This document shows, in pieces, positions 57,933 to 60,520 of a DNA stretch of 64,000 nt (position 1 is its first letter; every line of letters starts with the position of its first letter). A program made the translations under genes and the position numbers. The notes beneath the pieces are model-generated. The model saw nothing but the letters and a program-made list of their open reading frames with translations, was not told where the DNA came from and ran no database searches. This DNA comes from Reyranella humidisoli (GTDB taxonomy: Bacteria; Pseudomonadota; Alphaproteobacteria; Reyranellales; Reyranellaceae). The DNA is taken from the NCBI RefSeq assembly GCF_019039055.1, contig NZ_JAHOPB010000001.1, positions 62,001 through 126,000 of the forward strand. Direction: 5' to 3'.

Positions 57933-58769
57933 CTATCGATCCTTGGCCATCTCGGCCTTCTCGAGCGCGGCGGCTGGGTCCTGGGTCAGGTCGGCATGCA
58001 GGAATTCGCGCGTCTCGGGTATCGCCAGATGTAGATCGTCGAGGTCCTGCACCTGGACGTCGAGCGAGGTCGCCTTGCAGCCCAGCACATGCCCGCCCGC
58101 CTTGCGATCCTCTGTCAGGAAATGCAGGTGCCAGCCCGCCACGGCAATGGTGCGCGAATAGGCCGGCGACCAGAAGCCGACCATCGTTCCCTTGACGTTG
58201 CTCTGCCGAAATTCGGCCTGGGCATCGGTCGCCTTGTCGAGATGAACGCCCGCCTCGACCTTGCAGGCGACCCGCCAATAGACCTCGTCGAACCGGCCGT
58301 CGACGCGCACCGCGAAGAAGAGATTGTTCGACCGGCGCAGTCTGTCGAGTTCGCCGGTGAGCGACGACATGGACGTGACGTTCTCGATCGTGCCGCGATG
58401 CTGGGGCTGGAAGTTGGTCAGGGTCGCGAAGGGCACCGGCGCCGCGTCTGCGGGCGCAGTGATGCTGCCGTCGGCATGGGCCTGGTAGAACTTGCCATCG
58501 AGTACGACCATCTCGCCGTCGAGCCCCTCGAACGTGCCGAGCCCGAAGTCGCCGTGCGTCCTGAGGCCTCCCACCGTGACCGCCTCGTTGTAGACGCCCT
58601 GCACCAGCGCGCCCGTGGTCGAGACCTGGAAGAGCGTCGAGTGGTCCAGGCCCAGCGCGTCGGATAGCGCCCTCGACACGAAATGGCGCAGTGGCTCGCC
58701 GGTCTTCTCGCAATGCGCCACCAGCGCGTCCATGAGCGATTGATACACTTCGACCGTGAGCCTCGGCAT
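57933..58769 (-). CDS. budA: Acetolactate decarboxylase with ribbon-helix-helix-like N-terminus
   Basis: 278 residues, about 20 longer than the Klebsiella BudA I recall. The catalytic domain starts near residue 45 (LFQVSTTGALVQGVYNEAV) with THGDFGLGTFEGLDGE, and zinc ligands His214, His216 and His227 in GWHLHFLTEDRKAGGH. It converts 2-acetolactate to acetoin. Residues 1-40 (RLTVEVYQSLMDALVAH, then EPLRHFVSRALSDALG) look like a CopG/Arc-type ribbon-helix-helix module, not the usual BudA start. The gene is divergent from acetolactate synthase, and repeated GCCCGGA motifs lie between them, so self-regulation is possible. Confidence 0.92.
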   Translation of the reverse strand: MPRLTVEVYQSLMDALVAHCEKTGEPLRHFVSRALSDALGLDHSTLFQVSTTGALVQGVYNEAVTVGGLRTHGDFGLGTFEGLDGEMVVLDGKFYQAHADGSITAPADAAPVPFATLTNFQPQHRGTIENVTSMSSLTGELDRLRRSNNLFFAVRVDGRFDEVYWRVACKVEAGVHLDKATDAQAEFRQSNVKGTMVGFWSPAYSRTIAVAGWHLHFLTEDRKAGGHVLGCKATSLDVQVQDLDDLHLAIPETREFLHADLTQDPAAALEKAEMAKDR

Positions 58770-58800
58770 CGGGACATCCTTCCGTCGCGGGCGACAAGAG

Positions 58801-58838
58801 ATGCCCGGACGGGCATGATCGCCCGGACACGGCCCGGA
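58801..58838. promoter_or_regulatory. Palindrome and repeated GCCCGGA motifs in the acetoin divergent promoter
   Basis: ATGCCC-GGAC-GGGCAT (58801-58816) is a perfect dyad. GCCCGGAC occurs at 58803-58810 and 58821-58828, with GCCCGGA again at 58832-58838 (spacings 18 and 11 bp). The cluster ends 20 bp before the synthase start codon. Ribbon-helix-helix proteins bind such short tandem or inverted boxes cooperatively. The motif is GC-rich, so chance in this genome must be tested. Confidence 0.45.
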
Positions 58839-58858
58839 ATCGAGAGCGGAGCGACACG

Positions 58859-60520
58859 ATGAGCAGCGACCCGAAGAACGGCGCGCACCTGCTGGTGCGC
58901 AACCTCGAAGCCCAGGGCGTCGAGCACATATTCGGCATTCCCGGCGCCAAGATCGATCCCGTCTTCGACGCGCTGGCCGATTCCAAGATCAAGCTGGTCG
59001 TCTGCCGCCATGAGCAGAACGCGACCTTCATCGCGGGCGGCCTCGGCCGCCTGACCGGCAAGGCCGGAGTCGTGCTCGTGACCTCCGGCCCCGGCGTCTC
59101 CAATCTCGCCACCGGCCTCGCGACCGCCAACACCGAGGGCGATCCCGTGGTGGCGCTGGGCGGCGCCGTGCCGATCGCGGACCGTCTGAAACAGGCGCAC
59201 CAGAGCATGGACACGGTCGCGCTGCTGCGACCCATCACCAAGTACGCCGCCGAGATCGATTCGCCCTCGGCCATTTCCGAGGCGACCGCCGCGGCTTTCC
59301 GCGCCGCCGAATCGGGCCGGCCGGGTGCCGCCTTTCTCGGCCTGCCCAAGGACGTCATGAAGGCGCCCGCGCCCGGCCCGGTGCTGGCGCCGGCGAGAGT
59401 CCCGCGACTGGGGGCGGCCGACACCGAAGCGATCGCCGAAGCCGCGCGCCTGATCGACGCGGCAGAGCGTCCGGTCGTCCTGCTGGGCATGCTCGCCAGT
59501 CAGGGAGCGGTCGCCGAGGCCGTGCGGTTCCTGCTCGCCCGGACCCGACTGGCCGTCGCGGGCACCTATCAGGCGGCGGGCGTGGTCCCGCGCGACCGGC
59601 TGGACTGTTTCGGCGGCCGGGTCGGGCTGTTCCACAATCAGCCGGCCGACCGGCTGCTCGACGAAGCCGACCTCGTGATCACGATCGGCTTCGATCCGGT
59701 GGAATACGACCCCGCGCTCTGGAATGCGGGACGCACGCGCAAGCTCGTCCATATCGATTGCATCCCGGCCGACTACGACCAGTGCTACCGGCCCGACATT
59801 GAGCTGATGGGCGACAGCGCCGCGACCTTGCGTGCCCTGTCGGCGCTGCTGAAGCCCAGGGAACGACCCACGCAGTCGGCGCTGCTGGCCGAGATCCATC
59901 GCGAACGCACGACGGTCGCGGCCGAAGCGGCCAAGCGCAACGGCACGCCGGTTCATCCGCTGCGCCTCGTCCACGAGCTGCAGAAGCTGATCGACGAAGA
60001 TGTGACGCTCTGCTCCGACATGGGCTCGTTCCACATCTGGATGGCCCGGCATCTCATCAGCCACCGGCCTCGGCAGATCCTGATCAGCAACGGCCAGCAG
60101 ACTCTGGGCGTCGCCCTGCCGTGGGGCATCGCGGCCTGCTTGGCCGAGCCCGGCCGCAAGGTGATCTCCATCTCCGGCGACGGCGGTTTCCTGTTCTCCG
60201 CCGTCGAGCTCGAGACGGCGGTCCGCCTCAAGTGCAACTTCGTGCACGTCGTCTGGATCGACGGCAGCTACAACATGGTCGGCATCCAGCAGGTCGCCGC
60301 CTACGGTCGCGATTCAGGCGTGCATTTCGGTCCCGTGGACCTGGTGAAATTCGCCGAGTCGATGGGCGCCCAGGGCCTGATGATCAAGGACGCCGACGCG
60401 ATCGAGCCGACGCTGCGCAAGGCCATGGCGATGGACGGTCCCGTACTGGTCGGCGTGCATGTCGACTATCGCGACAACCCCGCCCTGATGGCCGCGATGC
60501 ACGAGGACGTCATCATCTGA
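58859..60520 (+). CDS. alsS: Acetolactate synthase, catabolic (AlsS/BudB-type)
   Basis: 553 residues, thiamine-diphosphate enzyme. The catalytic Glu52 in VCRHEQNATFIAGGLGR, the central domain ending near residue 340, and the C-terminal ThDP site ISISGDGGFLFSAVELETA...IDGSYNMVGIQ are present. No small regulatory (ilvH) subunit gene follows. With the divergent decarboxylase, this points to the catabolic, acetoin-forming enzyme rather than the branched-chain biosynthetic one. It condenses two pyruvates to 2-acetolactate in the cytosol, supporting pH control or overflow metabolism. Confidence 0.92.
   Translation: MSSDPKNGAHLLVRNLEAQGVEHIFGIPGAKIDPVFDALADSKIKLVVCRHEQNATFIAGGLGRLTGKAGVVLVTSGPGVSNLATGLATANTEGDPVVALGGAVPIADRLKQAHQSMDTVALLRPITKYAAEIDSPSAISEATAAAFRAAESGRPGAAFLGLPKDVMKAPAPGPVLAPARVPRLGAADTEAIAEAARLIDAAERPVVLLGMLASQGAVAEAVRFLLARTRLAVAGTYQAAGVVPRDRLDCFGGRVGLFHNQPADRLLDEADLVITIGFDPVEYDPALWNAGRTRKLVHIDCIPADYDQCYRPDIELMGDSAATLRALSALLKPRERPTQSALLAEIHRERTTVAAEAAKRNGTPVHPLRLVHELQKLIDEDVTLCSDMGSFHIWMARHLISHRPRQILISNGQQTLGVALPWGIAACLAEPGRKVISISGDGGFLFSAVELETAVRLKCNFVHVVWIDGSYNMVGIQQVAAYGRDSGVHFGPVDLVKFAESMGAQGLMIKDADAIEPTLRKAMAMDGPVLVGVHVDYRDNPALMAAMHEDVII

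Follow-up and report, generated by a model that had tools for sequence, protein, structure and literature searches.

Enzymes that double as transcription factors are few. Acetoin genes are controlled by the LysR-type regulators AlsR and BudR. The example of an enzyme with a ribbon-helix-helix (RHH) domain that surfaced in our literature search is PutA, whose trifunctional form (type C, as in Escherichia coli and Salmonella) joins a metabolic enzyme to an N-terminal RHH domain and is described as repressing putA and putP in a manner coupled to proline (PMC5293562). The same source reports that the E. coli RHH domain, when fused to a PutA lacking one, confers DNA-binding properties, so that by this report an RHH domain on an enzyme can act as a module (PMC5293562). 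Here, we analysed a 64,000-nucleotide stretch of the Reyranella humidisoli genome (contig NZ_JAHOPB010000001.1, positions 62,001 to 126,000), called the window below, to which all coordinates refer. It contains the gene for an acetolactate decarboxylase (ALDC; alsD, also named budA) lying back to back with alsS, the gene for an acetolactate synthase (Table 1). This decarboxylase carries an N-terminal domain of the RHH type, and the fusion is a variant of the RHH-enzyme combination known from PutA, itself apparently undescribed. Among the matches listed for the open-access literature, none concerned an ALDC with a ribbon-helix-helix, CopG or DNA-binding domain or with autoregulation, in line with an earlier note on this DNA, whose author knew of no described ALDC with a DNA-binding domain; open-access searches on Reyranella and acetoin gave only titles unrelated to the subject.

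Residues 46-262 of AlsD are covered by PF03306 (E=2e-75, 253.3 bits for a cut-off of 25), and the protein is also recognised by TIGR01252 (231.9 bits, cut-off 180.65). The adjoining AlsS matches NF006378 (803.5 bits, cut-off 510) and TIGR02418 (759.8 bits, cut-off 551.1). In an alignment of 18 ALDC rows, H214, H216, H227, E86 and R155 were invariant; we take the three histidines to be the metal ligands (HxH...H), with E86 and R155 as nearby invariant residues. The whole catalytic domain and these invariant residues are common to the window protein and AlsD/BudA, and its best structural matches among decarboxylases were 4bt2, 4bt3, 6j3d, 5xne and Klebsiella 6inc/6inb. In comparisons with Pfam, NCBIfam and the Protein Data Bank (Klebsiella 6inb included), homology to ALDC begins only at residue 43-46. 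Since the solved decarboxylases align to the window protein only from residue 43 or 44 on, the first ~42 residues are extra, and the known AlsD/BudA structures start where the RHH domain ends. These comparisons identify the protein as an ALDC with about 42 additional N-terminal residues. They also uphold the earlier note in that the first 40 residues have no counterpart in Klebsiella BudA and that an 89-bp gap separates the ALDC gene from a divergent acetolactate synthase gene. Eleven close orthologs (87-97% identity) were found, among them L024 of R. aquatilis (87%), with record labels of Reyranella, Rhodospirillales, Rhodospirillaceae or Alphaproteobacteria. The window enzyme may work like PutA but is not PutA: the PutA catalytic core (proline dehydrogenase/pyrroline-5-carboxylate dehydrogenase) is absent from the protein, where only PF03306 and a weak unrelated match were found. 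Its catalytic domain is the unrelated ALDC domain, whereas that of PutA is a flavoenzyme, and it is without a known membrane switch.

Homology, selection and phylogeny give good support to the assignment of the N-terminal domain to the RHH family; the sequence evidence carries the weight, and the predicted folds are in accord with it. When 23 family N-domains were scanned singly, 9 matched the Pfam model RHH_1 at E<=1 (best 3.2e-4), and the domain from an Ancylobacter polymorphus plasmid reached 21.0 bits, above the cut-off of 20.5 (16.8 bits for the same copy within the whole protein). Two NCBIfam antitoxin models, which we take to describe RHH antitoxins, were matched by 3 members each, RelB-like at 1.6e-5 and BrnA at 1.1e-4. 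A profile made of the 23 domains found CopG (2cpg) at E=0.011, with the strand through the second helix aligned without gaps; a designed repeat protein scored better in that search (0.0014), by adding up six weak repeats. The window copy itself aligns nearly gap-free to the relatives that match RHH models. It shares the strand-helix-helix order of the CopG/Arc/NikR family (PF01402) and, like CopG, has RLT in its strand; it differs in being fused to an enzyme, which these repressors are not. In the AlphaFold2 (AF2) models of the whole protein (mean pLDDT 76.8) and of the isolated domain (80.7, pTM 0.46), an extended segment is followed by helices at residues 10-23 and 27-39, as expected from the strand-helix-helix pattern that had been read from the first 40 residues; DSSP assigned no strand in the monomer model, and the ribbon needs a dimer. 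For the isolated domain, Foldseek ranks 1-16 were all chains of Arc, CopG or a HicAB complex, the best E being 0.35 and none <=0.001. VIA-align gave Z scores of 5.3-5.6 to chains of CopASO, PutA, StnY and HicAB, a range that is common by the tool's own statement, the PutA DNA-binding structures 2ay0, 2gpe and 2rbf lying at 5.3-5.5; NikR was also among the nearest structural matches, with modest scores.

To this is added the selection on the domain. Across 12 orthologs (the window copy and L016-L026), dN/dS was 0.052 for codons 2-42 vs 0.109 for codons 43-278, and within residues 2-46 only positions 6, 17, 25, 33, 37 and 40 varied, by mild changes. Because codons 2-42 are under such constraint, a wrong start codon or an untranslated N-terminus is ruled out. 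The ratio was lower still in 11 of the 48 equally long sliding windows of the same gene; the domain is well constrained, yet not exceptionally.

The same fusion, which the earlier note had proposed to seek in related genomes, is present in two phyla. We scored the N-domain as present when a profile or query match began by position 10. It was found in 13 of the 14 matching genomes of the order (76 searched, own included), the 14th being a short fragment, and in 4 of the 10 matching genomes of the class sample, for which 385 were searched. In the order to which the Bradyrhizobium member belongs, it was present in 10 of 14 matches (397 searched, own genome included), in the phylum of Aquisphaera in 1 of 13 (294 searched; two of the 13 weak and partial), and in the window's phylum in 2 of 12 (398 searched), with one genome (G1486) set aside and another (G1234) counted. 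The G1486 candidate was rejected, since its match continues past a stop and no RHH domain is seen in the open frame. In the G1234 locus (L184), from another family of the phylum and a 1.9-Mb genome, an RHH-like N-domain was seen by eye on an ALDC, with a longer linker; scanned alone, this N-domain gave no RHH match in Pfam. Among the 80 loci kept, the match begins at residue 1-4 in 22 (L016-L037), of which nine come from Planctomycetota. A tree was made of the catalytic domain only, with 119 rows, leaving out identical rows, rows below 180 residues and loci fetched later. All 36 RHH rows fell into one clade together with the RHH-less L038 (bootstrap 100, not fully settled; SH-aLRT 98), and this clade spans Alphaproteobacteria and Planctomycetota; 83 of the 119 rows showed no RHH by profile. 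In the phylum of L038 (record label Verrucomicrobia), the N-domain was found in none of 43 matches (194 genomes searched), and no split RHH gene was seen in the 290 bases upstream of L038, where another frame ends. This distribution is most simply explained if the RHH domain was gained once and lost once and reached the different phyla through transfer or very old descent.

Many RHH-less ALDCs start, by eye, with an apparent signal peptide or lipoprotein leader, including many in the phylum of L038 (e.g. L196-L214), which suggests export of the enzyme. Because so many RHH-less proteins begin in this way, the RHH branch is probably cytoplasmic. As for gene copies, Bradyrhizobium sp. ARR65 (G457) has four alsD loci (L033/L160, L114/L151, L172 and L173); two of them carry the RHH domain, and of the two that lack it one is interrupted by a stop.

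From these sequence-based findings (an ALDC domain joined to a constrained domain of RHH homology, within a single clade) and because trifunctional PutA offers a precedent, we infer that the RHH-bearing AlsD may be a PutA-like enzyme and autogenous regulator of its own acetoin locus, a reading to which we give a probability of roughly 0.52. The RHH domains of two subunits would pair, and their two-stranded ribbon would enter the major groove of DNA belonging to the enzyme's own locus; in the window, this would be the 89-bp gap that separates alsD from alsS. The enzyme would thereby regulate acetoin synthesis, probably as a repressor, and the signal would be the binding or turnover of acetolactate in the catalytic domain. 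Self-repression of the divergent operon, which the earlier note had suggested, is drawn by analogy with PutA. AlsR and BudR would serve the same purpose, the control of alsS and alsD, as proposed here for the RHH-bearing enzyme. What weighs against this reading is found in the family matches of the domain, in its charge, in the promoter gap and in the gene neighbourhoods.

Concerning the family matches, neither Pfam nor NCBIfam gave an RHH match for the N-domain of the window protein itself, and when 18 members were scanned as whole proteins, the RHH matches were weak: RHH_4 in 2 (0.026) and RHH_1 in 1 (0.046). Together with the Foldseek and VIA-align scores given above, the missing match of the window copy is what a coincidental resemblance would look like, that is, a strand and two amphipathic helices of other origin. 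Chance matches of single short domains do occur: the same 23 sequences, when reversed, gave one match to an unrelated Pfam model at 0.0058, and the real set matched KH_PARP14_2 in 2 members (best 0.014) and other unrelated models in one. On the other hand, the reversed set gave no RHH match at all (0/23 in Pfam and NCBIfam, and no RHH structure), whereas different members of the real set repeatedly match RHH models, one above the curated cut-off, and the alignment to CopG is free of gaps. We consider a coincidence very improbable.

The charge of the domain bears on whether it binds DNA. In CopG, Arg4 and Thr6 are reported to contact bases, and Thr8, Lys28 and Ser29 to contact the backbone (PMC8251345). 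The residues aligned with these are R3, T5, E7, L27 and R28. By this alignment, both base-contact positions are matched (R3, T5), while the third strand position is acidic, and E7, L27 and R28 stand in place of the backbone-contacting residues. In addition to the glutamate that stands at a presumed DNA-facing position in the window clade, the net charge of the domain (K and R vs D and E) is -2 in the window copy and, among the 23 family N-domains, negative in 15, positive in 6 and zero in 2. Of the sequence features, this acidity speaks most against strong DNA binding, although its weight is reduced by the CopG stretch of the alignment, whose net charge is 0 by the same count. The acidity would suit an RHH domain retained as a dimerisation or assembly module that does not bind DNA, regulation being left to other proteins. 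RHH proteins are described as dimers held together by their helices (PMC3325190), the surface residues of the strand differ between lineages, and alsD is found in many contexts, often without alsS. Against such a module speak the RHH-less ALDCs, whose existence and solved structures mean that the domain is unnecessary for assembly in general, and also the strand itself: R3, T5 and E7 are identical in 12/12 orthologs, whereas residue 6, which presumably belongs to the core, is variable, a pattern in keeping with a functional surface. We hold this alternative to be unlikely, if by no means far-fetched.

In the promoter gap, the perfect dyad and the three GCCCGGA copies that the earlier note had described are where it placed them (Table 1). 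Chance rates were estimated on 3196 overlapping 89-bp windows from the same 64 kb, gap included. A perfect 7-bp dyad with a spacer <=10 occurred in 12.0% of them, some 7-mer present thrice on one strand in 1.8%, and both in 0.28%; in 20,000 first-order Markov re-samples of the gap, the corresponding values were 10.6%, 3.1% and 0.4%. The dyad alone is thus ordinary and its combination with a triple box is unusual, but this combination was chosen post hoc. The dyad was found at one place in the genome, which is uninformative for a 16-bp pattern. That the boxes would be conserved in orthologous promoters held only in part: the dyad core is kept in 10/12 orthologs, but all three boxes are exact in 3/12, and there is no excess over the remaining gap. 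Box positions were conserved in 10.67/12 on average vs 11.0 elsewhere in the gap, with 67 of 89 circular shifts equal or higher, and dyad positions in 10.1 vs 11.1, with 82 of 89 shifts equal or higher. Box conservation was accordingly rejected as evidence of an operator. Nor was a convincing conserved operator seen by eye in the upstream regions of 8 planctomycete and 5 Hyphomicrobiales genes. The second inverted repeat was conserved slightly above the gap mean, without significance (18/89 shifts as high). If there is an operator in the gap, this repeat and the invariant block next to alsS are better candidates than the dyad and the boxes. No sigma-70-type promoter was found in 58700-58930. 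The invariance of the block exceeds the needs of a ribosome-binding site. A 15-nt imperfect direct repeat lies over the alsS start (58850-58879), and the three bases at the start of its second copy (58865-58867) are missing in 8/12 orthologs.

The lack of an operator conserved beyond the close relatives, and of excess box conservation within them, would fit an enzyme that binds DNA, but not, or not only, at its own promoter, acting on other genes in trans or as an activator. Many RHH-bearing ALDCs are unlinked to alsS, and RHH activators exist, AmrZ and NikR being named as such (PMC3325190). Yet most RHH proteins are described as repressors (PMC3325190), PutA is reported to control its own gene (PMC5293562), and the alsD-alsS gap is short and contains repeats. 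We judge regulation away from the own promoter to be improbable.

Returning to autogenous control of the own locus, the gene neighbourhoods delimit where the divergent gap could be its target. The genes alsD and alsS are divergent in the window and in all 11 close orthologs, and in none of the 24 RHH-bearing loci outside the close relatives. Nine of these 24 have an alsS-like frame on the same strand (L148, L149, L150, L151, L154, L158, L159, L031 and L105), with 58-65% identity (49% for L159); L160 has only a 37% alsS homolog, and in the other 14, some of them short stretches, no alsS-like frame was seen. The divergent promoter is a local feature, and the RHH domain is older than the divergent arrangement. 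LysR genes adjoin budA in Pantoea and on Vibrio plasmids. With two reference proteins as queries, the only LysR-like frame in the window was ~16 kb away and none was found beside the RHH loci; as none was found beside 14 RHH-less control loci either, the absence of LysR was rejected as support for control by the enzyme itself.

If the reading of an autogenous regulator is right, this would be a second case beside PutA, on an unrelated enzyme and in two phyla, and RHH domains would have made a pathway enzyme its own regulator more than once. That the ALDC lineage is a second RHH trigger enzyme of independent origin, which senses acetolactate in its active site and switches its own locus through a CopG-type domain, we regard as possible at slightly less than even odds. 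It would provide a compact acetolactate-responsive switch for the acetoin and butanediol pathways.

Table 1. Coordinates of the features of the alsD-alsS locus in the window
Feature	Position	Strand	Evidence or remark
alsD/budA, ALDC, 278 aa, N-terminal RHH domain	57933..58769	minus	PF03306, TIGR01252
RHH-type domain, residues 1-42 (extended ~3-8, helix 10-23, helix 27-39)	58644..58769	minus	AF2, family profile matches, Foldseek/VIA, dN/dS
Presumed DNA-facing strand R3-L-T5-V-E7-V	58746..58763	minus	CopG alignment, published contacts
Catalytic ALDC domain, residues 46-262	57984..58634	minus	PF03306; H214, H216, H227 invariant (18-row alignment)
alsS, catabolic-type acetolactate synthase, 553 aa	58859..60520	plus	NF006378, TIGR02418
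Divergent intergenic gap, 89 bp, candidate regulatory region	58770..58858		between alsD and alsS starts
Perfect dyad ATGCCCG-GA-CGGGCAT	58801..58816		perfect in 3/12 orthologs; core CCCG-N2-CGGG in 10/12
Second inverted repeat CGGGC-N6-GCCCG (minus-strand reading)	58810..58825		intact in 7/12 orthologs
GCCCGGA copy	58803..58809	plus	exact in 7/12 orthologs
GCCCGGA copy	58821..58827	plus	exact in 8/12 orthologs
GCCCGGA copy	58832..58838	plus	exact in 3/12 orthologs
17-bp block just upstream of alsS start	58836..58852		invariant in 12/12 orthologs

Finally, five Hyphomicrobiales loci (L152, L153, L155, L156 and L157) have an RHH-bearing alsD without a nearby alsS-like frame, and a conserved, coding-looking region lies upstream of alsD in these five. 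Downstream of alsD, a frame that looks TetR-like by eye recurs in L153, L156 and L157.

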